Shown piece by piece: positions 2,343 to 27,741 of a stretch of 34,977 nucleotides of DNA (within the stretch, counting starts at the first letter, position 1; the number at the start of each line of letters is the position of its first letter). Origin of the DNA: a virus; IMG/VR virus record IMGVR_UViG_3300005096_000051, positions 1 through 34,977 of that record, one strand, 5' to 3'. The position numbers were made by a program, and so were the translations under genes. A model generated the notes under the pieces. It was not told where the DNA came from. It saw nothing but the letters and a program-made list of their open reading frames with translations, and ran no database searches.

Positions 2343-3068
2343 TCAAGGAACCAAGAACGTTCCTTCAACCGTGTATTGGCTCGACAATCCTGGATTGCCG
2401 CTGAGATACGGGCCGAAGGGCGTAACGCCCCGATAGAACGTGTCAACCTCGTAGCCGCTGTTGTAGTAGGTGTAAGTTGGCAAGTAGAAACGCAGCCAAA
2501 TGAGCCCGAGATTCGTGCTGTAGTTCCAACCCATCACGACCTCGATGGTGTATGGATACCCGAGGTAGCGGATCAACGTCGTGAACTTCAGGGCGTTCTT
2601 GCGGCAATCGGTTCCCATGCCGGAGCCGTAGATGCCGGTCTGCCCCACGTTCTCCGGCCACGTCTTCGAGCGAAACGGCGAGTTCAGATAGACGTTTGGG
2701 TTCCCTTGCTGCTGAGTCGTTGGGCTTCCCCAAAGGAAGTCCTCGATTCGCTGAAGCTCCACGCCCATTTGCCCGCTGTTGACCACGTTGTCCCAGACAA
2801 TCCAGGTACGCGGATCGTCGATGTTCGGATTGAACGTAGGGTAGTAGTCGGTGATGTAACCGATTGCGAGATTGTTCACCTGGTTGGCGTACGTCGGGTC
2901 GTCATACCAGAAAACCTCCGGCTGCGTCGGCATTGACCAAGCCGGAAGCGGGTCCGGTGTGTTGTTGACTTCGTTGCTGCACCCAAGCGTCCCCAGAATC
3001 AACACCAGGGAGATGAAGAAGCCGTTACGCAGTGAACGCGAAATTCTGTCCGGTGTTCCAAGCAGCAT
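2343..3068 (-). CDS. Lipoprotein with degenerate transglutaminase-like core
   Basis: A 241-residue predicted lipoprotein. Residues 8-15 carry arginines, residues 16-29 are hydrophobic (FFISLVLILGTLG), and Cys30 would be the lipidated residue. The lipobox TLGC is slightly atypical. At residues 150-180 the segment GMGTDCRKNALKF...IRYLGYPYTIEVVMG resembles the nucleophile region of transglutaminase-like cysteine peptidases (Cys155). The His that should follow in the W-x-R-F-Y-L-P strand is not seen, although a later VD is, so activity is doubtful. An AGGAGG lies 11 bases before the ATG. The start overlaps the end of the spike gene by 44 bases. A membrane-anchored host-envelope protein among fibre genes suggests superinfection exclusion or envelope modification, by analogy with lipoproteins such as T5 Llp. 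This is inference. Confidence 0.72.
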   Translation of the reverse strand: MLLGTPDRISRSLRNGFFISLVLILGTLGCSNEVNNTPDPLPAWSMPTQPEVFWYDDPTYANQVNNLAIGYITDYYPTFNPNIDDPRTWIVWDNVVNSGQMGVELQRIEDFLWGSPTTQQQGNPNVYLNSPFRSKTWPENVGQTGIYGSGMGTDCRKNALKFTTLIRYLGYPYTIEVVMGWNYSTNLGLIWLRFYLPTYTYYNSGYEVDTFYRGVTPFGPYLSGNPGLSSQYTVEGTFLVP

Positions 3069-5346
3069 TGTTCTCGAATCCTCCTGTTCCAGTCAGGCGG
3101 TATCCAACGGAGTAGATCACGCCTTGCTTTGTTCCAGACCCGACGGCTGTATTCGCCTCGAACGCGGGGATGGTGGAGTTCAGTTCCACGTATCCACCGG
3201 CAACGACCACTCGGATGACGTTCGCTGTTGCGTCCGCCGGGTCCAACTTCACCACGTAATCCGAACCGGCGTTGGGGTTCACCAACGTAAAGTCCGAGAT
3301 TACGACTCCCTTGATCGTAGCGGAAATGGCCTGGAGGGTAAATCCGATTTTCTCGGATTGACATTCCGAAGCCACGATGTCGCTCAGGTCGTGCTCCGCT
3401 GTAACGTCCAGGATGCTCGCCAGATTTTCGGTTTTCACGTTCTCGAAGGACCAGCGACCGGAAGACACTGCACCCCCGATGACCTTCAAACTGAAAGCAT
3501 AGATGCTGCTCGTTCCCCGCACGATGATGTTTTCGGCGCGGAGGTCGTTGATGCTGATGTTCGAGCCGGTAGTGCCGAACGCGGCAACCTCGCTATGAAC
3601 CCGGACGTCATCCAGGCAAATGCGTTCCAGCGTGATTTGTGCGGTACTGGACGAAAAAAGGAAAAGGCGACGGACGCGCGCGGAAAGCCCCGCGTAGGCG
3701 TCCACGTCCTGAGCGTTCACGTCACGCAGCGTAAATGAATTTGTGGTGGTGATGAAGATACCGAGTCCGCCGTCCAGATTGCTTGACGCCGTAACGTCTG
3801 CGGAGGTCATGTTCGCCAGGGCGATTCTCCGTAAGGTGAGCCCGGAAATGCTGGTGACGGCGTTGCGGTCGTTGGTCACGATGGCGTGGACGTAGGCGGC
3901 GTCCACGTCTTCGATGGTCAGGCGTTCAACCGCTCCGGTAACGAACACCAAGACGCCCGCACCGGCACCCGCTGCCGCCAAACGCATGTCCACCTTTGCG
4001 ATGATGACGTTCCGGCAACCGGACTTCACCACGACGGGGGCGTCGATGCTTCCGGTCGTGGACGTGGCGCCTCGGAAGTCGCAGTTTCTCAAGGTCGCCC
4101 CGACTGCGTTTTCCAGGATAGCGAAACTCGTCATCCCGGAGCCGAGAACGCAGTTTTCGATTTCGTTGCCGGAGCCGCCGACGTACAGCGCCGTAACCAC
4201 CGACGCCGAGTACAACGTGCTGAGGACGTTCTGGATTCCGGTAACACGGATTCGATAGTCGGTAGAGGTGATTCCCGTACCGGAATCGACCTGTGTGAAA
4301 ACGCCGAAGGCGTGATTGTACGAACCGGGAAGCGAGAGAAGGGCTTGTCCGTTCACCGCCCCGGCTCCGGTAACGATTTCGCGTACGTTGCGGATGAGGT
4401 TGTAGCTGCCGTTGATGACCAGACAGGCGGTCTTCGTAGCCGGTACGTTCTGGAAAATGAGATTTTCGAGGACGCACCCGGAAGCGTTGACGGTTACGTC
4501 TCCGGTATCGACGAGCAAGTTGCGAACGATGGAACCGTTTCCGTCGATGGTCAGTCCATCATGTTGCCACACCGCGTTCTGGTCCTCTCCCAGAATGAAC
4601 AATGGCTCGGAGACGGTCATCATTCCCTTGCCGGTGTCGTTCACCGTTCCGAACACGCGGATGCGCCGGCAACCTGCGGCGATGGCGTCGTATATGGAGG
4701 TGAAGTGTCCGGTCTTGCCGACGACCGCCCACGCGCCCTGTTCCAGCGCGTCGATCATCTGCTCCACCGTACCGAGCGTGGTCGGTACGTTCGTGTAGGC
4801 GGAAGCGTCGAGTCCGAGACGGGCGGCGCCGTTCGAGTCGAAGTTGACCTCTGGGATGTAGCGGTTGTCGTGGTCGTTGTTGGCGCTGTTGGTCGGGTCG
4901 CTGGTGTGGAAGCGTGAGTCGTTGCCTACCGCAAGCGTGTTGGGTCCGGTTCCGACGGATACGCTCAACTGCTGTTCGGTCGGCGTGGTGACAAGCTGAA
5001 GCTCCGGGGATTGGACGGTGACAGGCGGGTGAGCCGAACCACCCTTCAGCGTACCGTCCGCGTTCAGTGAAACCGCCAGCATCTCTTCCAGCGACCCGAG
5101 AGGCGTCGCATGACCGGGCTGAGAGTTCGGGATGAGGAAGTTGTTGCCGGCGAAGGCGTCGTTGATTGCGTCGATGGCTTGATTCAAGCCGTCCCGAAGC
5201 TGAACGTCTCGATACGACAGGTTGTGGACAGGGCGGTTGGCGTTCGACGCATCAACCGCGTCCGAATCCACCAGGTAGTCGATGTCACCGCCAGCGTGGG
5301 AAATAGGCTGACCGTCAGGGAAGTTGACGTTTGGGATGGTTGCCAT
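3025..5346 (-). CDS. Beta-helical tail spike with fibre adaptor domain
   Basis: A 773-residue tail spike. Residues 1 to about 180 are the adaptor shared with the collar-domain fibre at 1018-2259. From about residue 200 the sequence becomes a right-handed parallel beta-helix: GHFTSIYDAIAAGCRRIRVFG marks the usual entry (the pectate-lyase-like spike pattern), followed by many short turns such as GNEIENC, VGATLRNCDF and NVIIAKVDM over about 450 residues. The C-terminus (GVIYSVGYRLTGTGGFEN) may be a trimerisation end. No catalytic residues can be assigned, though such spikes often bind or cut host surface polysaccharide. Two dyad elements lie directly upstream, and AAAAAGGAAT before the ATG is the ribosome binding site. 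The last 44 bases overlap the lipoprotein start. Confidence 0.85.
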   Translation of the reverse strand: MATIPNVNFPDGQPISHAGGDIDYLVDSDAVDASNANRPVHNLSYRDVQLRDGLNQAIDAINDAFAGNNFLIPNSQPGHATPLGSLEEMLAVSLNADGTLKGGSAHPPVTVQSPELQLVTTPTEQQLSVSVGTGPNTLAVGNDSRFHTSDPTNSANNDHDNRYIPEVNFDSNGAARLGLDASAYTNVPTTLGTVEQMIDALEQGAWAVVGKTGHFTSIYDAIAAGCRRIRVFGTVNDTGKGMMTVSEPLFILGEDQNAVWQHDGLTIDGNGSIVRNLLVDTGDVTVNASGCVLENLIFQNVPATKTACLVINGSYNLIRNVREIVTGAGAVNGQALLSLPGSYNHAFGVFTQVDSGTGITSTDYRIRVTGIQNVLSTLYSASVVTALYVGGSGNEIENCVLGSGMTSFAILENAVGATLRNCDFRGATSTTGSIDAPVVVKSGCRNVIIAKVDMRLAAAGAGAGVLVFVTGAVERLTIEDVDAAYVHAIVTNDRNAVTSISGLTLRRIALANMTSADVTASSNLDGGLGIFITTTNSFTLRDVNAQDVDAYAGLSARVRRLFLFSSSTAQITLERICLDDVRVHSEVAAFGTTGSNISINDLRAENIIVRGTSSIYAFSLKVIGGAVSSGRWSFENVKTENLASILDVTAEHDLSDIVASECQSEKIGFTLQAISATIKGVVISDFTLVNPNAGSDYVVKLDPADATANVIRVVVAGGYVELNSTIPAFEANTAVGSGTKQGVIYSVGYRLTGTGGFENNAAWNTGQNFAFTA

Positions 5347-5404: not shown

Positions 5405-5433
5405 CTTATTCAGATTGAATAAGCATCTGTCAG
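5405..5433 (-). promoter_or_regulatory. Dyad promoter-like element B2
   Basis: On the minus strand CTGACA (5433-5428), a 17-base spacer and AATAAG (5410-5405) contain the dyad TTATTCA-GAT-TGAATAA (5406-5422, + strand). The -35-like hexamer overlaps the stop codon of the 187-aa gene. It is in tandem with B1. Confidence 0.65.
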
Positions 5434-5993
5434 AAGATGATCCGGTGCCGAAACTCCAGTCGGAACGAGTTGTTCTTCGTGATTGGCGCGAAATTCTTTT
5501 TGGCGAACATCAGTTCGTTCGACGTACCGAACAAGGCGTTGAACAAGCCCTCCTCGCTGAACGTCTCACCGTTCGCTTCCGAGAAATCGACGTTGGCTAT
5601 GAACTCGATGGACTTGTCCCCAGGAGGCGTGCCCGGGTAGTTCACGCTCACCGGCTTACCCGACGGCAAACTGGTGAGTGGTACGGAAATCGTTTCCTCG
5701 GAGGGAGAGACGACGAGAGGCGTACCGGACGTCGGGTTGTGACCACCTGACCCGAACACCATCGTCGTAACGAACAGGTCGCCAACGCCGCTGATATTCA
5801 CCGTCCGTCCACCGTTCGTTTGGATGGTAGCCGAGGGATTCCCTCCCAACAGACGGCTCATCATCTGGCGACCTGTCGTCACCACCAAGTTTTCGCCTTC
5901 GTCACGCCGCCACAGGACCGAACCATCACGCGCATACGCAATGATGATCAGCGTTCCCGTGACCTTCCCGAAGTGATCAACGAAGTTCGGCAT
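5430..5993 (-). CDS. Tail/baseplate-associated virion protein (187 aa)
   Basis: A 187-residue beta-rich protein. Residues 5-50 (FGKVTGTLIIIAYARDGSVL...NLVVTTGRQMMSRLLGG) and the end (SEEGLFNALF..., LMFAKKNFAPITKN, FRLEFRHRIIF) match a pattern I associate with small phage tail proteins and fibre N-terminal modules: an introductory strand, an 'unclamped until' loop and a closing 'ArKtF-pi-K' strand. I cannot name a family with certainty. The ATG lies three bases after the stop of the tail protein I gene, without a clear ribosome binding site, so translation is probably coupled. It directly precedes the tandem elements B2 and B1 and the spike, so it may connect the baseplate and the fibres. Confidence 0.7.
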   Translation of the reverse strand: MPNFVDHFGKVTGTLIIIAYARDGSVLWRRDEGENLVVTTGRQMMSRLLGGNPSATIQTNGGRTVNISGVGDLFVTTMVFGSGGHNPTSGTPLVVSPSEETISVPLTSLPSGKPVSVNYPGTPPGDKSIEFIANVDFSEANGETFSEEGLFNALFGTSNELMFAKKNFAPITKNNSFRLEFRHRIIF

Positions 5994-5996
5994 GGC

Positions 5997-7757
5997 TTAT
6001 ACCGTGATTGGATAACCAGGAAGCAGGTTGTTCAGCGTGTCGAACGCTGAAATCGTCGTCTGGTCGCCATCATACCATGACGACCCATCCCCGTAAGTGA
6101 AACCTCCCGCCGCCATCGCCCCGTAGGTGATGACGTCGCGGAACGGCGGTCCGATCTGTGGACGTTCCTCGAAGTCGAACGACTCGTCCGTAAACGGATC
6201 ACGGTCCCCGGCGTACTTCAGATAGACGAGGGGCGGAGGACCAGAGGAACTGTTGAACCGGACTGGTGCGCGGGTGCCGTTGAAGTATTGCAGTCCGACA
6301 CCAGCGGTGGGAATCCAAGCCGGCTGGTCGATTCGGTCATGCGGAACGTACTGGGTGTTCGGGTCGTACGTTCCCTCGACCGTCATTATCGGATAGACGC
6401 TTACCGTCACGTCCTCGTCATCCGGCACGTCGAACGAATCCACGTTCAGCACACCGGGAATGACGTCCCGAATCAGCACGTGGATGGGACGAACCTCCTC
6501 GGCGTACTCAAGAAGCTGGGTGATGTTCGTCGGGTCAATCGGGGAGTTCGAGTCGAACCGAAGGACAGTGAGGTCGATCCGTGAATGCGGCATCCAATCC
6601 ACACCGAGGTCGGAGTCGGAACAGTTGAACCCGTCCGTCCACAACTCAGTGATGAACGCCTCGTACCCCAAGGCGGCGAACCTCGCCATGAAGGACCCTT
6701 CCAAGCCCTTGTCCTTGTACCACTGGATAGCTTGGCGCAACTGCCTCCGTCGAATCGCTACAGGGAAGTTCTGGTCGATCCGCATGGCAATCCGGTTCGC
6801 CAACAGATGCAACCAGTGCGGAGGCGCCTTCTCGACGTCGTACAGGTCCTCGAAGTCGAGAATGTCCTTCGCGTTGCGTATGCGGAACGCCTCGACCAAG
6901 TCAGCGTAGAACTTGATGACCGAGTCCGGGTCGTGCTGGTACACCGGAAGCGGAACGAGTTTCGGAACCCAGCCGTCCTTGACGTTCTCGACCCAGAACG
7001 GTTCGGAGAGGAAGTAGTCACCTTCCTCGTACGGGTCCTTTGGCTTCCCGCGAAGCGTCACACGACCCGAACGAACGTCCTCGTCGCTTTTCCACGCGAA
7101 AACATGGTCTACACCACCGGAAGCGTTTGGGAGCGTTGACAAACCTACCCGCCCGTCGCCTCCAGAACCCTCCGTACAAGGCTTCCAACTCTTCCCGTCG
7201 TCCAGGGAATACTCGAACTCGATGTCAACCGGGTCGGACTCCTCGTCTTCCAGGTTGTACTGAACGAGGATGGTTCCGGTCTGCAAGGCAACCGGCGTAG
7301 GGGACGGGCTGGTGGAAGGATTGGGGAAAATGAATTTACCTACGGGTTTGGTGTTGTTGAGAACGAACACCCCGGGCCAGACCGTAGGACTTCCGGCGAG
7401 CGTCGAGTTCACGAAGGAAAATGAATTTGTGAGGATGGTCGTAACACCACCCACGCCGTCATCGGCGGTTATTTCGATTATTACGGTTGCTATGAGTGCC
7501 GACAAGTCGAACTCCGCGTCCCAAACAAACCGATGGGAAGCAGGACTACCGGACGGTCCCGTGGAGATGTTCAACGTTCCTTCGCTGGAAGGATCAACGG
7601 ATTCAGAGCACACGTTGAAGGTCGTGCCACCGTCCGTGGAGTACCGGAACTGCATCGTCACCGGATGAACGCTGGCATCCTCGACGGTGTAGTCGATGAC
7701 TACGTCGCCGGACTCTGGGCTGGGGATCGGTGTGAATGTCAGAACTGGTTGGGCCAC
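5997..7757 (-). CDS. Tail protein I (gpI-like) with N-terminal Ig-like repeats
   Basis: A 586-residue protein starting at GTG (7755-7757), with GGAGG six bases upstream. Residues about 1-125 and 130-255 are two Ig/FN3-like modules with the signature Y-S-x-D-[GD]-G ... W (FRYSTDGGTTF, FEYSLDDGKSW) and a closing H-x-F-x-W strand. Residues about 265-370 carry the tail protein I pattern of P2-like phages: LPVYQHDPDS, a helical stretch with DFEDLYDVEKAPPHWLHLLA, then RRRQLRQAIQWYKDKGLEGSF and GYEAFITELW. In P2 and related contractile systems gpI is a baseplate wedge component that links to the tail fibre, which fits the fibre genes that follow. The C-terminal 200 residues are beta-rich and unassigned. 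The Ig modules resemble ones inside the preceding LamG gene, indicating module sharing. Confidence 0.85.
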   Translation of the reverse strand: MAQPVLTFTPIPSPESGDVVIDYTVEDASVHPVTMQFRYSTDGGTTFNVCSESVDPSSEGTLNISTGPSGSPASHRFVWDAEFDLSALIATVIIEITADDGVGGVTTILTNSFSFVNSTLAGSPTVWPGVFVLNNTKPVGKFIFPNPSTSPSPTPVALQTGTILVQYNLEDEESDPVDIEFEYSLDDGKSWKPCTEGSGGDGRVGLSTLPNASGGVDHVFAWKSDEDVRSGRVTLRGKPKDPYEEGDYFLSEPFWVENVKDGWVPKLVPLPVYQHDPDSVIKFYADLVEAFRIRNAKDILDFEDLYDVEKAPPHWLHLLANRIAMRIDQNFPVAIRRRQLRQAIQWYKDKGLEGSFMARFAALGYEAFITELWTDGFNCSDSDLGVDWMPHSRIDLTVLRFDSNSPIDPTNITQLLEYAEEVRPIHVLIRDVIPGVLNVDSFDVPDDEDVTVSVYPIMTVEGTYDPNTQYVPHDRIDQPAWIPTAGVGLQYFNGTRAPVRFNSSSGPPPLVYLKYAGDRDPFTDESFDFEERPQIGPPFRDVITYGAMAAGGFTYGDGSSWYDGDQTTISAFDTLNNLLPGYPITV

Positions 7758-7769
7758 GGTTATCCTCCG

Positions 7770-10700
7770 TTATGGATTCCAACCAAAGAAGTCGGGCTCG
7801 TCGTCAGTAGGCGGATCGTACGGAGTCGTGTGGTATCCGTCCCATACGCGCAACGCGGACAGGAAAATGTCCCCGCTTCCGCTCGGGAACGTCAGAGAGA
7901 ATCCTGGTCCGTACGAGAAAAGATAAGGAAGCGCGGACACAAAAAACCGGAGTGGTTGTCCGCCATCAACGCTGATGTTCAAAAGGTAAGGATCGGATTT
8001 TCTGATCGACAAGCGGAAATGATGCCAGTTTGAGTCGCTCGGGATGAAGTTTGCTGGAATCGTAAATGTATCGAACGCCGCAGCAGACGTGTAAACCGAA
8101 CACGAACCTCCAGAAACGGACGACGAGAAGTTTATCAAGGTTTGCGGAACGTTGCTGTCGGAGATGAGCAAACCGATAGGGTCGGTCGGCACATCCCGCT
8201 TCACGAAGAACTCAAAACCGACACCGTGCTTGAAGACGACCCCCCGAATGAGTCGGTTGTCTGGAAAGCGCACTCCGCCTGAACCGTAGCGCAACCCAGA
8301 AGTGAATGGCCCATCAGTGAAGAGCACGTTGTTCCCGAAATGGTCGCGCAACACCCCGTCCAAGGACTGAGGTTGCTCCTCGTACAGATCAAGATTGCGT
8401 GGGTCAGTGCGCGCGGGCATCGTGACCAACGTGTTGTGGAACCAGTTCGTCAGCAAAACCTGATCGAATCTTACCACTTCGGACGCCGCTGGGCCTTCGG
8501 CACGCAACACTACGCGAAATCCGTAGTCCCCAAGACTACCAAACAGCGCCGCACGTCTTGGGTAGGTGAAATCGAAAGCCTTTCCACTGTTCGTGTAGGC
8601 CACCATCCGCAGCGATGAGGAACCAACATCAGCCAAAGAGAAACTCAAGTTCTTCCAAGCCCCTCCGATGATCGTCGCTTGGACAACAGGCGGAATCGAA
8701 ACGGACCCGTATTCACTCTCGTCGATAGCGATTTCGGGAACGCTTATCTCCTGCGACGCCTGGTCTATCACCAGCCGCAACAGCTTCCTCCCACGATATG
8801 CGCTCAAGATTTCGATGGCGGCGTTGGCCTGGGTGGTTTCCAAATAGTAGACAAGGTCAACCGATAAGCCTTTACTGAATTTGTCTCGCGTGAACAGGTC
8901 AAACGGCACGGGAAGTGCAGCTTCACCAGATGCGTCCGTAGTCAACTTCAGGTAGGAACTTCCCGACCACAATGGAGCCGTAGCGTCAATTTCGGCTGTA
9001 CCTGTAGTTCCAGCATTACCAGAAAACTCATTTACTGCGCCTGCCGGTACAGCGCGTGAAACCGAAGGAATCGCTCCGAGAGCATCCTCGAACGTCCACG
9101 CTGAAACGAGCGGTTCGTTGAACCGATAGTCCGCCACGACACGTGCGTCGTTGTCCTCTTTCTTCTTCGGCGTAATGCGGAACAGCGCCCACTTTGCTCG
9201 AATGCCGGTCGTGTCCCACTTGAAGACGTGGGCGACGCCGGAGGGACTGGACGCCAATCCAGTCGCACCGCTCCCTCCAGGGCCGGAGACGGCAGGGAAC
9301 CATTCGTTCGAGCCGTCCAAACGGTACTCTGGTACGATGTCGCAAAGCTGACTGTCACGGTCGTACAGCGTGAAATCCACGTCCACGACGCCGCTGACAG
9401 GACTGACCAGCGTGAGCGGGTGATCTACCGAAGGGATGGACTGCTCGGGTCCAGCCAGATTCTTTACTGCATTGGCTCGCGGACTCGTCCAGTCCGTCAC
9501 GTTGGCCGAGGCGCTCCTGGCGATGACAGCGATGTAGAGGTCACGTTCCTCTTGCGAGATGATGCCGCGAATATCGAACACGTAGCTGTACGAGGGCGCC
9601 GTCGCGTCTGCGGTCAGTCCGGTTGTCTGGTTGGCGGACGACCCGGATGGAGCATCCCGCCAAAGCTCCCCGTCGAACGAGTAAAGGACGCGAATCTCCA
9701 CGTCCGTCAGCGAAAACGGATAGTAGAGGTCGAAAGACACCGTCGCCAAACGGTTCGGATAGTCGAACGTCGGTTGGATGTTCCGTACGGAAACGGTCTG
9801 CTTCTCGTTGAAGCGCAACCGCGTGAACTGTTTGTCGATTTGCGGGACTTCGTACGTCCCGTCGTCCGTGTAGGCTTCCGTACCGGCGTGATAAACGACG
9901 TCGTTCACATCCCACCAACGACTAGGGTTCGAGCCGTCGTGGTAGATTTCCAGATAACGGAACTCCGTAGGGATTGGCGCCTTCGCCAAGTCCAAAGCTA
10001 TTCCGTATTTTCCTTGCGAAAATTCAGGAATCTGAGCAGTGGATGTCTGCGGAACCGTATACGACCCACCAGACGGGTCCAACGCCGCGTCCCATACGCG
10101 GAAGTTGCAAAGGCGCGCCTCGGTCCCGCCGGTAAGGCTGTACGCGGCAAGGACGACCTCCATTCGCTTCGCCTGGTCGATACTCTGCTCGGTGAAAGCG
10201 AGAGGAAATCCGTACAGCGTCCCGTCAACGCCTACCACCAACTGCTCATGCACGAACGAGTAGCCGAATATGACGTGCTTGAAGCCGGTAAGTCCCGGAA
10301 CGTTTATGGTCGCGTTCTGAGGCGCTCCCTGTGCGTCTCGATACGTGATCGTGAAGGCGTTTAGCGGATGGACACGTACGAGGCGGAGGAACGTGGCGCC
10401 GAGTTCCTCAAGACGAATATCGACCGAAGCGTCGAAATCGACCACGAAGTCAACGAACACACCTCCGTTTCGGAACAACGTGTCGTGTGACCACCCAAGA
10501 TACAGCGTGGAGAAGTGGCGAAGGCGAACTCCGTCGGTCAAGTCGGAGAAGTGCCGAATGAAAAAGCTACCAAGCTCAGCCTTTCCGGTCACTTGTGCGG
10601 AACCGCTTTGGTTCCCTAACTGGTCCACAGGGTACTGCGAGGACGATCCAACCAACGTGACGTCGTCGTCCAAGCGGTAGTGCATCATCAAGCGAGGACG

Positions 10701-11054
10701 CTGGGAAAAGAAAACACCTTCCGTACCGCCGGCGATGTTTTCTCGGGAACACCCGAAAAGCAACGTGGCGAAACCAGCGTCTTCCCTACGCACAAGACTG
10801 ACACGATGATGAGCATCCCTGCCGGAGAAAGGACGGAGCCCAGTCTTGTATGTCGTCGGTGCGCCTAACGTGTTCGGATAGACGGTTACGTTTCCGTTGC
10901 TATCCCACTCCAATGCGGGGGCTGTGGGGGAACCCGGTTGACCGAGAATGCGAAAACGCAGTTTCGTATCGGAGAGGAAAAACCTCTCCCAATAGTCCAG
11001 GGTGAACGATTCGCCTTGGGGAATCGAAATCTGGTTGAACGGCAGACGAATCAT
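7770..11054 (-). CDS. Giant LamG/Ig-like virion protein, downstream half
   Basis: A 1094-residue protein made of beta-sandwich modules. Residues 1 to about 115 begin in the middle of a LamG (concanavalin-like) domain (RLPFNQISIP, FTLDYWERF) whose first half is the end of the preceding gene. Further LamG-like units start near residues 120 (LMMHYRLDD), 650 (VSAWTFEDALGAIP) and 880. Two Ig/FN3-like modules at about 430-640 (YSFDGELW, YRLDGSNEWF with HVFKWD) match those of the tail protein I gene. The ATG is in the same frame as the upstream gene, separated only by TAG-AGC. GGAG six bases before the ATG permits separate initiation. The role is probably a long fibre or baseplate-associated glycan-binding appendage. 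The alternative is the second half of a read-through product. Confidence 0.8.
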   Translation of the reverse strand: MIRLPFNQISIPQGESFTLDYWERFFLSDTKLRFRILGQPGSPTAPALEWDSNGNVTVYPNTLGAPTTYKTGLRPFSGRDAHHRVSLVRREDAGFATLLFGCSRENIAGGTEGVFFSQRPRLMMHYRLDDDVTLVGSSSQYPVDQLGNQSGSAQVTGKAELGSFFIRHFSDLTDGVRLRHFSTLYLGWSHDTLFRNGGVFVDFVVDFDASVDIRLEELGATFLRLVRVHPLNAFTITYRDAQGAPQNATINVPGLTGFKHVIFGYSFVHEQLVVGVDGTLYGFPLAFTEQSIDQAKRMEVVLAAYSLTGGTEARLCNFRVWDAALDPSGGSYTVPQTSTAQIPEFSQGKYGIALDLAKAPIPTEFRYLEIYHDGSNPSRWWDVNDVVYHAGTEAYTDDGTYEVPQIDKQFTRLRFNEKQTVSVRNIQPTFDYPNRLATVSFDLYYPFSLTDVEIRVLYSFDGELWRDAPSGSSANQTTGLTADATAPSYSYVFDIRGIISQEERDLYIAVIARSASANVTDWTSPRANAVKNLAGPEQSIPSVDHPLTLVSPVSGVVDVDFTLYDRDSQLCDIVPEYRLDGSNEWFPAVSGPGGSGATGLASSPSGVAHVFKWDTTGIRAKWALFRITPKKKEDNDARVVADYRFNEPLVSAWTFEDALGAIPSVSRAVPAGAVNEFSGNAGTTGTAEIDATAPLWSGSSYLKLTTDASGEAALPVPFDLFTRDKFSKGLSVDLVYYLETTQANAAIEILSAYRGRKLLRLVIDQASQEISVPEIAIDESEYGSVSIPPVVQATIIGGAWKNLSFSLADVGSSSLRMVAYTNSGKAFDFTYPRRAALFGSLGDYGFRVVLRAEGPAASEVVRFDQVLLTNWFHNTLVTMPARTDPRNLDLYEEQPQSLDGVLRDHFGNNVLFTDGPFTSGLRYGSGGVRFPDNRLIRGVVFKHGVGFEFFVKRDVPTDPIGLLISDSNVPQTLINFSSSVSGGSCSVYTSAAAFDTFTIPANFIPSDSNWHHFRLSIRKSDPYLLNISVDGGQPLRFFVSALPYLFSYGPGFSLTFPSGSGDIFLSALRVWDGYHTTPYDPPTDDEPDFFGWNP

Positions 11055-11057
11055 GCT

Positions 11058-13064
11058 CTACTCCGCAAACAAGCGTAGAACGCCTGTGATTCCCGAATGA
11101 CCGAGAGCGGCCGGCGCGATGGTAACAGAACTGGCCTGCGCGTTCCCGTCCATATTTCCGAGAACGTCCGCCGGAACCGTCGGGCTGTTGTTTGGTACGG
11201 TTCCGAAGAACCCACCGAAACCGAACGACAACTTCCCGTAAGGGGTATGAGCGACACTTATGCGAAATCTAGTACGCGGCGACGTTTTTCCCTCCGAATC
11301 GATGACTTGCACCTCGAAAGCGTACTCCCCTAACCCTGACGCTATGCCGGAAATCGCTCCGAGTGACGCATCAAATGACAGACCAGGAGGCAACACGCCG
11401 TCCAACAACACCCAAGTCAGCGGAGGAACGGCGTTGGCAGCGTTCAGTTGGATTGATGCCACGTCGCCTAGTTCGAGGACGAGGTCGGTCGGGTCAACGA
11501 AAACGAACGGCGGTGTAGAACCGCTGATTCCGATGACGTTTTCCGAGTTGGATGGATTGTAGTCACCGAACTGAACGTACGGAATAACCGACAGCCGATC
11601 AATGTCTATGTACTCGGTGTCAGGGAGGGTTTTGATGGCGAGGATGGTCAAAGTGATTTCATTTGCCAACGCGATGTCCGGCGTATTGAGGCTGACAAAA
11701 GACTCCCGAGCCCGTTCCACGCCGTCTATGTGCATCGTGACGACGCCAGAGTTTGAGCGCAAAACACCGATTCGGAAATTATGCCAGTCGTCCAGCGTAA
11801 GCTCGGGGTCGATGGTACCCGATTTCAAGAACGTACGGTTCCCAGAAACGACCTGAAATGACCAATAGACCCGCGAAAGAGAGATGGTCAAAAGCTGTGT
11901 TCCGTTCGTGGCGTTCAGATAAACCAGAACCGTCTGTCCCTGGTCAAGCTGTTGTGCCTTGAACCGAACGAGAAAGTCCAGGGATATTCCGTTTCCTATG
12001 CTTGGCGCCAGCGTAAGTCGGTTGTTCGGGTGGGGAAGGCGGAGTAACGCACTCGGATTCGGCGTAAGACGTAAACACCCGCTACCGAAGCGCGGGCTGT
12101 CGTTCGAGATTTCCACGGAACTCAAAAATGCGTTTCCGTCACGATTCTCGCGGGCAGTGTGGTGGGAGTATCCGACTTCAGCCGGGATGTCCGGCGAACC
12201 GGATGGCATAGGAGGCGTATCGTTGAACGTCCAAAGAAGCAGCGGTTCTACGGATTCAAGCCGGAATCCTAGTTCCTGCGTCCCATCCGTCAGTTCGTAG
12301 ATGGGATCGCCGCCCGTTGAGAACGTAGTCGGTACGACCACTCCCGGTACGTTGTTGTCGCCTTCGTCGAATGCGTCCAGGACGGCAAGATTGTCCAGGT
12401 CAACGGAGAACGGCGCGATTCCTCCGGCATCTTCTACACGCGCGCTGAAAACGATTTTTCCGTCGGAGGCGCCCCGGAACATCTGTGGGAGAACCCCACT
12501 GAACGATACCGTAGAAAGCTCATACAGAGTGCCGCCGACAGCGATCATCCGACGTGTCTGCACGTAGGACTTGCTGATACCGAAACGTGCGTGATACCAG
12601 TTGCCTACCGAGATGCCGATAGAAGTCGTTACGACGACCGGAGGGTCGCCGGTGTTGCCAACGAGGGAAAGAGACGCAGTGGCGTTGCTGGCGGCGTCAA
12701 TTTCCACCGTCACCGAGAAAAACTCGTTTGTCAGGGTTGACCCGTCGTACGCGCCGATCTTCAGACGTGTGCCGATATTTGGAATCCTGACGAAAAAATC
12801 GAGGGTCAGCCCGTTCTTCAGAGCGTTGGCGTCAATCCGCACCCCTGGGGGCGGGAAGATGATGCCTTGAGACGCACCGGAACCGGAAAGCTGGAGGTAG
12901 TTGCCTTGTACGCCTCCGGCAACGATGGTCGGTGAACCAGTCGAGAGAATGTCGTTGCCGTCGGCGGCGCCGTCCTCGTCGGGAACCGTATTGCTTCCGG
13001 CTGGAATGGCTCCCACGGCGTCGTTGAACCGCCAGAGAAAGCGTGGGGTGACAAAGTTTCCCAT
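11058..13064 (-). CDS. LamG-repeat virion protein, upstream half, ending at an amber inside a LamG domain
   Basis: A 668-residue protein. LamG-like domain 1 starts at about residue 8 (FLWRFNDAVGAIP) and domain 2 at about 275 (LLWTFNDTPPMPSG). Both contain the N-G-[LI]-[TS]-L-D-F-[FL]-V-R strand. A putative Ig (He_PIG-like) domain at about 520-600 has PPLTWVLLDGVLPPGLSF and GEYAFEVQVIDSEGK. A third LamG starts at about 608 but stops at the TAG at 11058-11060, after GVLRLFAE. The missing continuation is encoded in frame immediately downstream. Elements C1 and C2 and an AAAAAGGAAT ribosome binding site lie upstream of the ATG. It probably forms an extended carbohydrate-binding appendage. LamG modules commonly bind glycans, but no binding residues can be assigned here. 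Confidence 0.82.
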   Translation of the reverse strand: MGNFVTPRFLWRFNDAVGAIPAGSNTVPDEDGAADGNDILSTGSPTIVAGGVQGNYLQLSGSGASQGIIFPPPGVRIDANALKNGLTLDFFVRIPNIGTRLKIGAYDGSTLTNEFFSVTVEIDAASNATASLSLVGNTGDPPVVVTTSIGISVGNWYHARFGISKSYVQTRRMIAVGGTLYELSTVSFSGVLPQMFRGASDGKIVFSARVEDAGGIAPFSVDLDNLAVLDAFDEGDNNVPGVVVPTTFSTGGDPIYELTDGTQELGFRLESVEPLLLWTFNDTPPMPSGSPDIPAEVGYSHHTARENRDGNAFLSSVEISNDSPRFGSGCLRLTPNPSALLRLPHPNNRLTLAPSIGNGISLDFLVRFKAQQLDQGQTVLVYLNATNGTQLLTISLSRVYWSFQVVSGNRTFLKSGTIDPELTLDDWHNFRIGVLRSNSGVVTMHIDGVERARESFVSLNTPDIALANEITLTILAIKTLPDTEYIDIDRLSVIPYVQFGDYNPSNSENVIGISGSTPPFVFVDPTDLVLELGDVASIQLNAANAVPPLTWVLLDGVLPPGLSFDASLGAISGIASGLGEYAFEVQVIDSEGKTSPRTRFRISVAHTPYGKLSFGFGGFFGTVPNNSPTVPADVLGNMDGNAQASSVTIAPAALGHSGITGVLRLFAE

Positions 13065-13116: not shown

Positions 13117-13145
13117 CTTATTCAGATTGAATAGACTTTCGTCAT
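13117..13145 (-). promoter_or_regulatory. Dyad promoter-like element C2
   Basis: On the minus strand ATGACG (13145-13140), a 17-base spacer and AATAAG (13122-13117) contain the dyad TATTCA-GAT-TGAATA (13119-13133). The -35-like hexamer overlaps the stop codon of the baseplate J gene. Confidence 0.6.
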
Positions 13146-14803
13146 GGGCACGAGCCTGTTACCGTGGGCGTCTGCTCTGGCGTCACCTTGTACGTTGCCG
13201 TGATGGTTCCAATGACGAGAAGCTCGTTTGCCGCAGACGTCACGTCTCCGGTCGGAGTCGATACCCCGTCGAAGTAGTCCACCCCGTCCACGTCATTCAC
13301 GGCTTCGTAAATGTCCGACAGACGGAGCGTACTGCCTGGTTGATGGTCGAGGCGTTTGAACAAGTCCTTCAGCGCCGTCTCGACTTGGGTCTGGACCTCG
13401 GAGAGTTCGTAGTCCGGGCTGACGAAAACGTTTCCGAGGTCGATGTCAACCGGCGTCGTGATGCCGTCCTGAACGCACACGCGCACCGTGATGAGGGAGC
13501 GGGCGTCCAGGTAAGCCGTCAGGTCGTCCTTCAGGGCTTGAGACGTGTTGGCGAACGTGTCGCCAGAGGGTGCCCACACGTACACGTCCACCAGGTTGCC
13601 GGAGAAGAACGCCGGCGTCGGTACGAACTCCCACGTCGAACCGTTCCACTTATACATCCCCGGACCGGACGGCGCGGCACTGTCCGTATCGAGGATGATG
13701 TAGATGGAACCGATTGGTGGGTAAGGATTGGACGGAGAACCGTCGGGCAGGAGCGTATACGACGTGAAGATGTCGAGAATGCGGGGACCCGTTCCACTGT
13801 CCCGAAGCAACGCCGTGCCCTTACCGATGGTCCCGTTCGGACCGGAGTAACCGAGGATGAGCGTCACGTAGTCCTGTTGCGTGATCGCCTTGTCCACCGA
13901 CCGAATGAACAGCGGGATGAAGCGCCGCAAGTGCGCCAACGACTCGCGGTCGGATTCACCGGACGAGGCACCCGGGTTTGTGACGTTCAATGTGACCGTA
14001 CTCGTCAACGGCGGAATGCCGAGAATGCCGGTGATCTGTTGGTTGATGGTGTTGCCGGCGATGGCTCCCGCCGCGCCTTGCGTCGTACGGTAGCGAATGG
14101 ACACGTCCGCACCGTCAGGTGGGATATTCCCGTACGTGCCGTCTCCGAACAAGACGATGATGCGATTGTCGTTGTCGTACCGAACGCGATAGACGTTTTC
14201 CGTCTGGGCATTCAGCAGGTTACTGACTTCCTCCCACTCGATGCCGTTCACGAACACGGACCAAGAGCCGTCCGCCACGTTCGTCTGCGTGCTGGTGAAC
14301 TCTTGGTTGGGAATCCCGACGCTGGTGAACGTGTCCTCGAACTCAACGCCCTCAACAACCGTGAAGGTCACATCGGTCGTACCGGCAGGGAAGACCCAGT
14401 CGCGTGTCGTCTCGAAGACAAGCTGTCCCGCCGACACGCGCGTTCCCTTTGCGATGGTCAGTTGGTCTGGCGTGGGGTTTGATGTGTCATAGTCCTGGAC
14501 CTTGATGTCAACCGTCGCGGGCGTAGGCCCGGCGGGACGGTATCCGACCGACTCGGCAAATCGAAGCGCCGAGGCATACCGCTTCGCCGTCGAAATGTTG
14601 ACCTCCTGCCCCACGCGGTCGATGGAGAAGGACAGGACGTCTCCTACGTACGCCACGATCTCGATGAGAACCTGTCCGAGATTCGACTCGAAGAAATCCG
14701 TCCACAACTCCGGTCTGGCGGCGCGTACGTACTCTTCGAGCGCCTCCAGGATGGTAGCGAACTCCCGAGCGGTGTACCGGATTCTGGGTTTCGTCGCAGC
14801 CAT
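13142..14803 (-). CDS. Baseplate J-like / gp6-like wedge protein
   Basis: A 553-residue baseplate wedge protein of the J/gp6 type, which forms the ring around the hub and controls sheath contraction. The N-terminus has RIRYTAREFATILEALEEYV and the DFFESNLGQVLIEIVAYVGDVLSF segment seen in large phage J-like proteins, followed by AKRYASALRFAESVGYRPA. The diagnostic LFGDGTYGNIPP motif lies near residue 215-230, then a G-A-S-S-G-E-S-D-R-E segment and the RFIPLFIRSVDKAITQQDYVTL region. The C-terminal part (VPTPAFFSGNLVDVYVWAP, PVDIDLGNVFVSPDYE, PGSTLRLSDIYEAV) fits the family's terminal domains. It follows the gp25-like gene, the standard order. It ends under element C2. Confidence 0.93.
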   Translation of the reverse strand: MAATKPRIRYTAREFATILEALEEYVRAARPELWTDFFESNLGQVLIEIVAYVGDVLSFSIDRVGQEVNISTAKRYASALRFAESVGYRPAGPTPATVDIKVQDYDTSNPTPDQLTIAKGTRVSAGQLVFETTRDWVFPAGTTDVTFTVVEGVEFEDTFTSVGIPNQEFTSTQTNVADGSWSVFVNGIEWEEVSNLLNAQTENVYRVRYDNDNRIIVLFGDGTYGNIPPDGADVSIRYRTTQGAAGAIAGNTINQQITGILGIPPLTSTVTLNVTNPGASSGESDRESLAHLRRFIPLFIRSVDKAITQQDYVTLILGYSGPNGTIGKGTALLRDSGTGPRILDIFTSYTLLPDGSPSNPYPPIGSIYIILDTDSAAPSGPGMYKWNGSTWEFVPTPAFFSGNLVDVYVWAPSGDTFANTSQALKDDLTAYLDARSLITVRVCVQDGITTPVDIDLGNVFVSPDYELSEVQTQVETALKDLFKRLDHQPGSTLRLSDIYEAVNDVDGVDYFDGVSTPTGDVTSAANELLVIGTITATYKVTPEQTPTVTGSCP

Positions 14804-14814
14804 ATGGCGTCCCT

Positions 14815-15240
14815 CTAACCGATGATCCCACCAAGCGTCTTCATATCGACGACGAGACGCTTCGTGAACTGGCCTTGCTGTCCAACCACGCGGTACGTAA
14901 CGAAGACCGCGATTTTGTTTTCTTCTTCCAGCGTACGTACGTCAACGAAATCGACGGAAAGCCTGGGGTCCCACTTCGGGACCTCTTTGATGACGGCTTC
15001 CTTCACTGCTGTCTGTGCCACTGGAAGGAACTCGAAAAGTTGATGAGACAAACCTCCGCCGAACTCCGGGAGCATCACACGGAAGTTCTTCGGTGTGAGC
15101 AGAATCATCACGATGGAAGACCAGAGAAGGTCGTGGAGCGTCTTGGACGCAAAGTACCCGCCTTGGGACTTCACGACCGGCAACGCAAGTCCACGATACT
15201 CGATGCGCCCGTCTTCTGGATTCATCCCGTCGTGAGCCAT
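14815..15240 (-). CDS. gp25-like baseplate wedge protein (GPW/gp25 family)
   Basis: A 141-residue wedge protein of the W/gp25 family, which nucleates sheath assembly on the baseplate. The core motif is intact: KTLHDLLWSSIVMILLTPKNFR then VMLPEFGGGLSHQLFEFLP (residues about 33-74), including the conserved E-F-G-x-G-L. The C-terminal strands (DPRLSVDFVDVRTLEEENKI, FVTYRVV) also fit, and the length is normal. The start has no convincing ribosome binding site. It lies seven bases after the stop of the previous gene, so coupling is likely. It is followed 11 bases later by the baseplate J gene. Despite the historical 'lysozyme' label of the family, no lytic activity is implied. Confidence 0.93.
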   Translation of the reverse strand: MAHDGMNPEDGRIEYRGLALPVVKSQGGYFASKTLHDLLWSSIVMILLTPKNFRVMLPEFGGGLSHQLFEFLPVAQTAVKEAVIKEVPKWDPRLSVDFVDVRTLEEENKIAVFVTYRVVGQQGQFTKRLVVDMKTLGGIIG

Positions 15241-15247
15241 CGGTCGT

Positions 15248-15850
15248 TCACAGCGGCAAGTGTTGGTGAGTGGAACCTGAGACTATCGGCGGCGTAGTCG
15301 AGCCATCGATCAGAACTGCATCAACCAACGCCTCTGACAGACCGTCTATGTAGTCCGGCAGTTTACATACCGGATGGTTCAAATCGAAGTCTGGATTGGA
15401 AAGAAGCGGAGCTTTTACGAGTCCGGCCAACGTCGTTCCGGTCACACCGAACCAGGAATGCGTATGCGCCAGATCGTTACCGTCCTTCACGTCGGTAAGC
15501 ACGGTCAGGAAATGCGTGCCTACGCCATTCGACCAGGCGGACACGAAAGCCGGCCACTGGGCGTGTTGATTTACGTCGAAATCGGTAAGCAACGACAGAA
15601 TGCGTGCCTCCAGTGCCGGTCCGGTAAGGATTCCAGGCGTGAGTGTGTGCGTGTGCGGTTGCGCCGAACCGGGATTCGGGCCGTTTGCCGGAATCGTTAC
15701 GGCTACGCTCCACAAGTCAACGAACGATTGGCTCAACGCCGTGAGCATCTGGTCCTGGTGCGGACCGGCGCCGGGAGGAGAAATAGAGAAGCCTCGCGCC
15801 TGTAAGGCGGTAACGAATCGCTGCTTCAGGCTTGAGGCGCTGATGCTCAT
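15248..15850 (-). CDS. Histidine-motif baseplate protein next to the spike (200 aa)
   Basis: A 200-residue protein of unknown family. The N-terminal helix region (residues 5-50) is followed by three His-x-His pairs: H66/H68 (PHTHTL), H129/H131 (AHTHSW) and H195/H197 (THQHLP, five residues from the end). There are about ten histidines in all, far above its neighbours. One Cys (162) is present. Its start overlaps the spike stop (ATGA), so the two are translationally coupled. In spike apexes of P2 gpV and phage phi92 gp138, His-x-His motifs bind iron at the tip. The parallel suggests metal binding, possibly at or near the spike, but the motifs are spread over the sequence rather than at one apex. 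It could instead be a hub or wedge adaptor. Confidence 0.72.
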   Translation of the reverse strand: MSISASSLKQRFVTALQARGFSISPPGAGPHQDQMLTALSQSFVDLWSVAVTIPANGPNPGSAQPHTHTLTPGILTGPALEARILSLLTDFDVNQHAQWPAFVSAWSNGVGTHFLTVLTDVKDGNDLAHTHSWFGVTGTTLAGLVKAPLLSNPDFDLNHPVCKLPDYIDGLSEALVDAVLIDGSTTPPIVSGSTHQHLPL

Positions 15851-16638
15851 TGCTTCGCTCGAACGCTCTGGGAGTGATCAGGGAATGGCTTTCCGGTGAA
15901 CGGGTCGATGTTCTCCCCGGTGACTACACCGGCAGTCGGGAGCAGCGCGGAGTTTCCAAGGAAAATGTTGCCGGACGCTTCCACGTTGCAGTCGCCGGAA
16001 ACCTTGATCGTCACCTGTGAACCAGACCCGTTGATTTCGATACGAGTCTGATCGTTGACCGCCAACGTTACGCCGGCGTCTTCTCCACTCCCAGCATTCT
16101 GGGGGGAATCACGCAAAACCAGTTTCACGCCGTTCTTCGTCTGGATGACGATTTCCTCGTCACCAGCTTTGTCACGTACGACGAATTTGTGGCCTTTCGG
16201 CGTGTAAAATCCGCGAATCTGGGGAGTATCGGCACCGGAACCGTACTGGTCGTCCTGGAACTCCTGCGGAAGTTGTGACGTGTCGTTCGGTGCCTTGGTG
16301 AGACTGCCGAACCAGATTGGACGCCGATAGTCTCCCTCGATGAACGTCACCCAAACAAAGTCGTTCTTCGCAGGCAGACTGAAATCGCCGTAGTTGTTGC
16401 CGGACGCGAAGAATGCCGGCTCCGCCCAGGGAAGGACACTTTCATCGGTTTCGCGTCCGCTAGCGTCACGTTCTGGGTGAATACCGAAAATCCGCACACA
16501 GACACGACCTTTTTTCTTCGGGTCGTCTATGGAAATGACTTTGGCTATGAAAAAATCATTTATCCTACGGAAGTTCCTTCCGAAGTATTCCTCGCGGTAG
16601 CGGATGAGGTCCAATATGTCTGGTGCGGCTTCGGGCAT
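15847..16638 (-). CDS. Baseplate central spike, gpV/gp5-like
   Basis: A 263-residue central spike protein that would form the membrane-piercing tip. Residues about 25-125 fit the OB-fold of gpV/gp5 proteins (FFIAKVISIDDPKKKGRVCVRIFG, LPWAEPA, GDFSLPAKNDFVWVTFIEGDYRRPIWFGSL). After it come GFYTPKGHKFVVRDKAGDEEIVI and short beta-prism repeats (QVTIKVSGDCNVEASGNIFLG). The end, GVVTGENIDPFTGKPFPDHS, resembles the closing signature of many trimeric phage spikes. No lysozyme domain is present, unlike T4 gp5. The ATG overlaps the TAA of the hub gene, with GGAGGA upstream. The next gene overlaps its stop. Confidence 0.92.
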   Translation of the reverse strand: MPEAAPDILDLIRYREEYFGRNFRRINDFFIAKVISIDDPKKKGRVCVRIFGIHPERDASGRETDESVLPWAEPAFFASGNNYGDFSLPAKNDFVWVTFIEGDYRRPIWFGSLTKAPNDTSQLPQEFQDDQYGSGADTPQIRGFYTPKGHKFVVRDKAGDEEIVIQTKNGVKLVLRDSPQNAGSGEDAGVTLAVNDQTRIEINGSGSQVTIKVSGDCNVEASGNIFLGNSALLPTAGVVTGENIDPFTGKPFPDHSQSVRAKQ

Positions 16639-18164
16639 TACTCTTCCTCCTCCGGTTGAACAGGACGAGAACGCTGCTGCGGTTGCGTACGCGGTGTAGG
16701 AAGCGGTGGAGAAGTCGTCAGATTCGGTGCGCGTACCGGCGCGTTACGTCCGCTCGTGTCGGGAACGAAGATTTCTCGTTCGAGGATGCGGTCGCCAAGT
16801 GTTACTGTTTGCTGACCTTCCTCTGGGAGAATGACGACGGGGCGTCCGTTCCGTCTGTTGGAGAACCGACCAAGGCGCTGTCCGGTTTCCCCGAGTTCAG
16901 GACTGAACGAAACGGCGGGAAGACCACGCATTTCCAGCGCGCTACGGCTTCCCATCAGATCGAACGTCGTAACCCCAGCTTCCGCAAGGTCACGTCCGCT
17001 GATGGCGCTACGGATGCCTTGGATGCGGGTTACGAAGTTGTCGCGTGATACATCATGCTCGACCGACCTGATGGTGTAGTAGCCGGACATGTAGTGCGGG
17101 GTGCCGTCACGCTTCAGAAGGCGCAGGTAAATGGTGTCGCGCAGCCTGATGAGGGGGTCGCCTATCAGTTCCACGTCGATGATGAAGTTGTACTCCGCGT
17201 AGAGACGCCACCGCTGAAGCGCACGAAACTCCGCTTCACGTTGGTTGATCGACAGGTCTTCTTGCGTAACCTGACCGCCGGAGATGATTCCCAACTGTTC
17301 GAGAACGGAACTGAAAGACGAGCCGTCCATGACCGTGCCGCGTTCCCGCGCTTCCCGCTCAGCTACCGAAGCTACATCGGCGGCGTCAGGGTCATCCGGG
17401 TTGGCGAAACGAACGACGTTTTCCCCAGCCCCGGCGAGAGACATCATCGGTCGTTGATCGGAGAGACTTACCGACAACACGCGACCGTCGCTCGCAAACC
17501 CGAAAACGTAAGCGTCGTAGAGGCGAAATCGTCCGTAGCGGGTGGTGGAGAACTCGAACTTGCCGTCCTCTCGGAACCACGCCTCATACGAACCGCTTCC
17601 CTGATCGCGTGGTCGGGCTAATGGCTTTATCGTGTCCAGCCATCCACGAAACGTCTGTCCAAGTGAGCCTGTCCACGGATGGATTGTAAATCTCTCGCCG
17701 TTGGTGGGCTCTATGACGATGTCGTCCTCGGGTATGCCGGCCGCCAATGCGGCAGCATGAACCGCGTCATCAACCGTTTGCTCCCCAGGGAACACGACGT
17801 CACGCTTCACGTACGAGAGACTGGCGTACGGCGATTGGATGACGACGTTCACCGACTCACCACCAGCCGAATATCGCGTCTCGTAATACTTCACCAAACC
17901 CTCGTACCAGGGGGACAGACGCTCGTGACTCCAACCCCAACGGAACTTGAACACCGTACCGAAACCCCCGCCGTGGATGAGGTTCTCCAGGAAGTCGTAG
18001 TTCGGGTCAAACAGGTCGAATGTCGCGGTGAAGGCTTTGTGTACGCCGAACTCGTACTTGAAGCCTTGGAGCATGTCACTCTGCAAAATCTGGTCCTCCT
18101 CCCCACTAAAGGGGTTGATGACGCGCAGTTCCACGACTGGAAACCGATACGTGACAGAGGACAT
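16638..18164 (-). CDS. Baseplate hub protein, gp27/gpD-like
   Basis: A 508-residue protein fitting the tail hub (late control gpD / T4 gp27 type) that joins the tube to the spike. Residues 1-125 form the first tube-like domain (FKYEFGVHKAFTATFDLFDP, KFRWGWS, YEGLVKYYE). A second domain follows (VDDAVHAAALAAGIPEDDI, GQTFRGWLDTIKPLA, WFREDGKFEFSTTRY). Residues about 330-385 (RLYAEYNFIIDVELIGDPLIRLRDTIYL, YYTIRSVEHDVSRDNFVTRIQGI) are the typical last hub strands. The final 60 residues are Pro, Gln and Arg-rich, ending in EEEE, and are probably disordered. It is preceded by elements D1/D2 and an AAAAGGAAT ribosome binding site. Its stop overlaps the spike start (TAATG). Confidence 0.88.
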   Translation of the reverse strand: MSSVTYRFPVVELRVINPFSGEEDQILQSDMLQGFKYEFGVHKAFTATFDLFDPNYDFLENLIHGGGFGTVFKFRWGWSHERLSPWYEGLVKYYETRYSAGGESVNVVIQSPYASLSYVKRDVVFPGEQTVDDAVHAAALAAGIPEDDIVIEPTNGERFTIHPWTGSLGQTFRGWLDTIKPLARPRDQGSGSYEAWFREDGKFEFSTTRYGRFRLYDAYVFGFASDGRVLSVSLSDQRPMMSLAGAGENVVRFANPDDPDAADVASVAEREARERGTVMDGSSFSSVLEQLGIISGGQVTQEDLSINQREAEFRALQRWRLYAEYNFIIDVELIGDPLIRLRDTIYLRLLKRDGTPHYMSGYYTIRSVEHDVSRDNFVTRIQGIRSAISGRDLAEAGVTTFDLMGSRSALEMRGLPAVSFSPELGETGQRLGRFSNRRNGRPVVILPEEGQQTVTLGDRILEREIFVPDTSGRNAPVRAPNLTTSPPLPTPRTQPQQRSRPVQPEEEE

Positions 18165-18605: not shown

Positions 18606-19235
18606 CTACGGGTTTGGTAGCGTCAGGAATCTGAACGCATCGTAGTCCCCAAGGTCTTCCGCCACGATGAACTCAATCGTTACCGGAACCTGCCCGGTAA
18701 TGAGAGTACCATCATCCAACGCCACCAAGGGCGCCATCTTGGTGATTTGGACCTTGCCCAGCACACCAACCACGTTGATGAACGACTCTGGGAAAATCTG
18801 CAACGTGAGGCGCGGAGGTGGATGGACTACTTTGTTCCCAGGCGTCGGTTCGTCCTTCCACGGAAGACACAATGCTTGCAGAAGTCTCGCGGCATCAAGA
18901 GCATATCCGGCGTAATCCGTATCGAACATCAAGGCGTTGAACTTGATCACCCGCTGACTCACGCCTGTAAATTCAAGAAAGGCATTCTGGCGACCGAGAA
19001 CAGAATACGTGTTGTACTCAGGCGAGAATGAATCCTCGATAGTTGATAGATCGAGGTAGCGGAACGGAAATTCGTCCGGCACAAGCGGGTAAATAGAGCG
19101 GTTGGTAGGCGTGAAGTTGCCGTGCGGAAGTTCACTTCTGAGATTCTGTAGGCCAGCTACCTGAGAACGGCTGAAAAACTCGTCTCTGGCACGCGGTTGC
19201 ACTATAAGTCTAGCGTCAATGGTCGGGTCAGACAT
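18606..19235 (-). CDS. Tube/baseplate-junction protein, paralogue 2 (209 aa)
   Basis: The start is taken at ATG 19235 (MSDPTIDAR), which overlaps the previous stop and has GAGGG just upstream. A longer in-frame ORF extending to 19409 lies inside the previous gene and is rejected. The 209 residues are paralogous to the gene at 19228-19845: both contain a segment like RRLQAFMMPW / RLLQALCLPW, then H-[PF]-P-P-P-R-L or Y-P-P-P-R-L, a hydrophobic F-I-x-V strand and a final IEF(I/M)V(A/D) strand. Proteins placed between the tape measure and the hub with such P-P-R-L motifs correspond by position to T4 gp48/gp54, which start tube assembly on the baseplate. The role is therefore inferred from order and pattern. 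Confidence 0.78.
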   Translation of the reverse strand: MSDPTIDARLIVQPRARDEFFSRSQVAGLQNLRSELPHGNFTPTNRSIYPLVPDEFPFRYLDLSTIEDSFSPEYNTYSVLGRQNAFLEFTGVSQRVIKFNALMFDTDYAGYALDAARLLQALCLPWKDEPTPGNKVVHPPPRLTLQIFPESFINVVGVLGKVQITKMAPLVALDDGTLITGQVPVTIEFIVAEDLGDYDAFRFLTLPNP

Positions 19236-25123: not shown

Positions 25124-25152
25124 TCTATTCAAATTGAATAGACTTTGGTAAA
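25124..25152 (-). promoter_or_regulatory. Dyad promoter-like element E
   Basis: On the minus strand TTTACC (25152-25147), a 17-base spacer and AATAGA (25129-25124) contain the dyad TATTCA-AAT-TGAATA (25126-25140), a perfect palindrome apart from the central base. It lies 24 bases before the tape-measure ATG, as a single copy. Confidence 0.6.
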
Positions 25153-27701: not shown

Positions 27702-27741
27702 GACGACCACGCTTGCAGTCGGTTGGAGGAAATTCGTTTTT

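Follow-up and report, generated by a model that had tools for sequence, protein, structure and literature searches.

An in-frame amber codon between two fibre-like genes of an uncultured contractile-tailed phage probably marks a coupled gene junction

Translational coupling between neighbouring genes is strongly limited to short distances, and gene pairs at -8 to +10 nt are enriched for subunits of one complex; most of the coupled pairs in operons of bacteria and phages have an overlap of 1 or 4 nt (PMC10666635). In Qbeta, the A1 protein is an in-frame extension of the coat protein, made on the coat's start codon at a low rate when UGA is read as Trp (PMC8067240). In the crAss-like phages that use code 15, TAG is read as Gln, and this recoding is located in the structural genes (PMC9523058). 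No paper on amber read-through or split fibre genes in tailed phages was found to describe the case presented here. In the present study, an amber codon lying in frame between two giant fibre-like genes, here called A and B, was analysed against these systems.

The window, that is, the whole stretch of DNA analysed, is a fragment, 34,977 bases long, from an uncultured virus. Its minus strand carries the tail genes of a phage with a contractile tail, namely tape measure, baseplate hub and wedge, baseplate J, tail protein I, fibre-like genes and a sheath gene recognised by its homology to annotated sheaths of phages. The baseplate J gene (13142..14803) lies upstream of gene A (11058..13064, an ORF of 668 aa ending in TAG), which is followed by gene B (7770..11054, an ORF of 1094 aa ending in TAA), all on the minus strand like every feature of this module given below. 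Gene C (5997..7757) encodes tail protein I (Tail_P2_I, Pfam PF09684, E=2.8e-7) with two N-terminal Ig/FN3-like domains, and starts in frame with gene B, 12 nt past its TAA. Gene D (5430..5993; phrog_5417) follows in frame, 3 nt past the TAA of gene C. Genes A, B, C and D (5430-13064) thus all lie in one frame, separated by 3, 12 and 3 nt, for which the chance is 1 in 27, and this common frame may have been left by domain shuffling or fission over the whole module. A and B are probably two tail-fibre or adhesin proteins.

A palindromic element, TTATTCA-nnn-TGAATA(A/G) (CTATTCA at 25124), occurs in 11 copies in the window, at 997, 5364, 5405, 13079, 13117, 18190, 18230, 25124, 27742, 33114 and 33154, with 0.0 copies expected in simulated sequence. 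The copies are all intergenic, often paired 38-41 bp apart and accompanied by TGTCA about 10 nt off, and the element is likely a promoter, operator or terminator of late operons. Two palindrome pairs flank the A-B-C-D genes and the gap from A to B contains no copy, an arrangement suggestive of one transcription unit.

In L002, a syntenic relative, tail protein I directly follows J without A and B in between, which indicates that A and B are a fibre module added in the lineage of the present phage. In the relatives found via sheath and baseplate J, J lies near tail protein I wherever both were read, and the repeat profile detected no LamG-like gene in the relatives' stretches that were read. 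Protein and profile comparison with 28 records of related phages found no homologue of A or B, and neither did tblastn in phage records, where the matches listed at E up to 10 fell mainly on or beside the Ig-like domain; IMG/VR gave none for A, B or the third repeat joined across the stop, and the genome contigs none for B. Pattern-based scans detect only close relatives, so these results are weak evidence that homologues are absent. The repeats align too divergently for their alignment to serve in scanning a collection.

Several other features of these tail regions were observed. Two neighbouring genes of the window (26404-27015 and 27048-27710) match, at 48% and 35%, one and the same L002 protein, whose gene comes directly after that of the sheath, and are probably two tail tube paralogues. 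A short gene (2343-3068) overlapping the fibre gene at 3025-5346 begins with a signal peptide and a lipobox-like start (LILGTLGC), as a lipoprotein within the fibre region, and had no match in Pfam or PHROG. In L002, a fibre-like gene (13896-15890) made of many 'VSTVDSKVDSVG' repeats is followed in the tail region by a glycosyltransferase-like gene (15981-17126).

The junction of A and B reads, on the minus strand, GGA ATC ACA GGC GTT CTA CGC TTG TTT GCG GAG TAG AGC ATG ATT CGT CTG CCG TTC AAC CAG. The initial annotation had described a gene ending in GVLRLFAE and TAG, one AGC codon and a same-frame start at MIRLP, and this proved exact in the raw sequence, with the TAG at 11058..11060, the AGC at 11055-11057 and the ATG of B at 11052..11054, 3 nt from the stop. 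The frame is open for 1095 codons past the TAG up to the next stop, and the joined frame holds 1764 codons with the stop counted, in agreement with the length of about 1764 residues given before. A GGAG Shine-Dalgarno core (11061..11064) overlaps the end of A, 6 nt ahead of the ATG of B. Within A and B, such a core precedes only 2 of the 12 in-frame ATGs, and these are the starts of A and of B themselves; over all genes of the window, it was present at 17/25 predicted starts versus 16/139 internal ATGs. Separate initiation of B from a plausible GGAG, one of three options originally offered for this junction, was the best supported of them.

Self-comparison of the two proteins revealed a divergent family of lectin-like repeats of about 180-230 residues, of which two lie in A, three more lie in B and a sixth starts where A ends, so that repeats of the same family fill both proteins. 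Gene A carries unit 1 (12375..13043), unit 2 (11574..12248), which is the best match to the split unit, an Ig-like He_PIG domain (11253..11492; Pfam PF05345, residues 525-604, E=1.5e-7) and the first ~60 residues of unit 3, a pre-core part at its C-terminus placed by a profile match (11061..11243). Gene B opens with the rest of unit 3, which a low-confidence model presents as a probable jelly-roll core (10689..11054), and continues with unit 4 (10041..10703), Ig/FN3-like stretches, unit 5 (8427..9119) and unit 6 (7821..8399). One Ig/FN3-like stretch of B (9060..9434) is related to the domains with which gene C begins (33% over 129 aa, E=5e-11), and the occurrence of such domains in both B and C fits domain shuffling inside the module.

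The repeats had previously been called LamG domains. Their best sequence match, Laminin_G_3, reached E=0.017 and 15.7 bits, below the Pfam cut-off of 27.6, although the name fits the low-confidence model of unit 2, which resembles ConA-like lectins. In Foldseek, this model (pLDDT ~40) gave E ~1e-3 to galectins, neurexin, agrin and alginate lyases, and re-alignment to galectins and alginate lyases gave Z 8.0-8.7; the model of unit 3 joined across the stop, also at pLDDT ~40, gave Z ~7-8.4 against galectins. The AlphaFold models were poor (mean pLDDT 42.5 and 39.7), with the N-terminal third hardly modelled, because the alignment consisted of six divergent rows, and the fold matches are accordingly only suggestive. 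"LamG-like" is therefore a fair but unproven name.

It had also been claimed that the sequence across the stop aligns as one continuous domain, and this claim held with certainty on one side only. Residues 605-668 of A matched a profile built from the five remaining repeats at 12.7 bits, a score that none of 2000 shuffles reached (best 6.7), whereas the first 130 residues of B alone were not significant against the repeat profile, with 168 of 2000 shuffles as good. When the unit-2 alignment was extended over the stop, its score rose from 57 to 76; this gain of 19 was matched by 0.2% of shuffled B sequences and 0.7% of other phage proteins, and correcting for the five units in the comparison leaves at most a few per cent. 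The gain in profile score on crossing the stop stood at the 4.8% level, and units 4 and 5 gained nothing there. The continuity on the side of B is thus modest and confined to unit 2, and a split repeat, real on the side of A, is likely overall.

The weak models also bear on where the stop falls. In the unit-2 model, the part matching known lectin cores covers residues 67/68-225, and Met1 of B aligns with unit-2 residue 68. In the model of unit 3 read through the stop, in which Met1 of B is residue 64, many matches begin at 61-63 and others at 32-39, and many end short of the galectin C-terminus. The stop thus seems, in these models, to be placed at the edge of the lectin core and not through it. 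With a jelly-roll core beginning almost at its first residue, B alone might make nearly the whole core, which in the low-confidence model appears short by about one C-terminal strand.

Taken together, A and B probably form two separate fibre or adhesin proteins, the second produced by termination-reinitiation, and derive from a lectin-repeat array by fission or recombination. Their genes lie back to back in the operon A-B-C-D, as an insertion that separates baseplate J from tail protein I, and would be translated by a ribosome that stops at the TAG, after which the same or a neighbouring ribosome would start B at the ATG 3 nt on. The GGAG overlapping the last codons of A would guide this start, combining termination-reinitiation with ordinary Shine-Dalgarno initiation, and such coupling would yield A and B in matched amounts. 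The pair most likely originated through fission of one longer lectin-like repeat array or through recombination between its repeats, both of which are possible, after which A would have kept the part of repeat 3 that precedes the core, and B the jelly-roll core. We infer the fibre or adhesin function, the coupling, this history and any contact between the tail of A and the first domain of B. Four observations weigh against two separate genes: A ends in an orphan repeat piece, which would be odd for a long-established protein end; the unit-2 continuity over the stop is nominally significant, as read-through would likewise predict; the searches gave no homologue in which the two genes stay separate; and RNA folding past the TAG is slightly better than average. 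We also considered, as a speculative and improbable proposal, that the stop and restart serve to divide a single lectin domain over two chains, the exposed tail of A donating the strand that the shortened first jelly-roll of B lacks, so that the two coupled fibre proteins would snap together.

A second possibility, less favoured but one to be taken seriously, is that A and B are unrelated in origin at the junction, recombination having joined the cut end of a repeat to a gene that starts near another core. This is a variant of the two-gene arrangement and compatible with it, and the apparent continuity would be a by-product of the common repeat family. It agrees with the first domain of B scoring no better alone than shuffles against the profile, with its seemingly missing last strand and with a continuity found with unit 2 only, but the two pieces match unit 2 with a register offset of no more than one residue, which speaks against it.

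The initial annotation had also raised programmed leakiness of the stop, in which some ribosomes insert an amino acid at the TAG and make a 1764-residue fusion of A and B besides A (and B), giving fibres of two sizes. The shared frame, the repeat aligning with unit 2 over the stop and weakly stable RNA beyond it speak for such read-through, yet we regard it as unlikely, since the TAG acts as an ordinary stop elsewhere, B has a strong separate start signal and the RNA structure does not stand out clearly within these genes. Specifically, folding downstream of the TAG of A was mildly stable (z -1.8 to -2.0), a value equalled by 8% of windows in A and B, folding across the TAG was unremarkable (z=-0.5), and no recognisable recoding context was present at this codon. 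TAG also terminates five other structural genes in the window, including tape measure, sheath and baseplate genes, and reading past these stops yields short unrelated tails or a separate next gene, with no added domain. Among close junctions (gap -30 to +30 nt), 5/12 are in frame, near the one third expected by chance, and include A|B, B|C, C|D and 18606|18255, so the shared frame of A and B carries little information. At the last of these, on the minus strand, the TAG of gene 18606-19409 (18606..18608) is overlapped by a Shine-Dalgarno sequence (TAGGAG) and the next gene (18596-18255), a conserved baseplate wedge gene, starts in frame 9 nt on, in the same layout as at A|B; another in-frame TAG junction thus leads into a baseplate gene. 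The listed TTG start of gene 18606-19409 overlaps the previous gene by ~180 bases, and an internal ATG (MSDPTID...) just past the previous stop is the likelier start. Furthermore, a suppressor tRNA, which had been proposed as a check, was not encoded in the window, where no tRNA genes of any kind were found.

The third option was a recent nonsense mutation or an assembly or sequencing error within one giant fibre gene. The locus is known from a single contig, the repeat looks continuous and zero relatives are available for comparison, all of which such an event would allow, but we judge it quite improbable from the position of the stop, one codon ahead of the sole internal ATG with a Shine-Dalgarno core in the 1764-codon frame. 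Only about 2% of positions have an in-frame ATG at a distance of 3 codons or less, and a core accompanies about 11% of internal ATGs, so that a random stop would fall in such a place with an estimated chance of ~0.2%; so low a chance favours a maintained start over decay or error. Finally, that TAG is read as an amino acid throughout the late genes, as in the code 15 crAss-like phages, is scarcely credible even in a class of genes where those phages recode, since the five other late genes end in TAG with unrelated tails or a separate gene beyond, the genes are full length under the standard code and the window holds no suppressor tRNA.

In conclusion, the A|B boundary is at present best regarded as an ordinary operon junction, a further instance of a widespread arrangement, and it cautions against taking a common frame with an intervening amber codon as evidence of read-through in phage fibre genes. 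If one domain is truly common to both chains, such a split would offer a simple genetic route to join two fibre proteins non-covalently in equal numbers. Compared with known systems, the locus resembles the coupled gene pairs of bacterial and phage operons in its 3-nt gap, its Shine-Dalgarno sequence overlapping the stop and products that are plausibly parts of one structure, and departs from them in that it lacks the usual overlap and has a protein repeat astride the junction. It shares with Qbeta a structural protein with an in-frame extension past a stop, which is here TAG and not UGA, and B has its own start signal, unlike A1. As in the code-15 phages, a TAG stands within a frame that may originally have formed one late structural gene, but here TAG ends other late genes, only a single such site was found and a suppressor tRNA was not seen in the window. 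The nearest likeness in content is to fibre or adhesin proteins with ConA-like (Laminin_G_3) repeats and He_PIG domains, which A and B match as beta-sandwich repeat arrays between baseplate genes, although their sequences are without detectable relatives in the collections searched.
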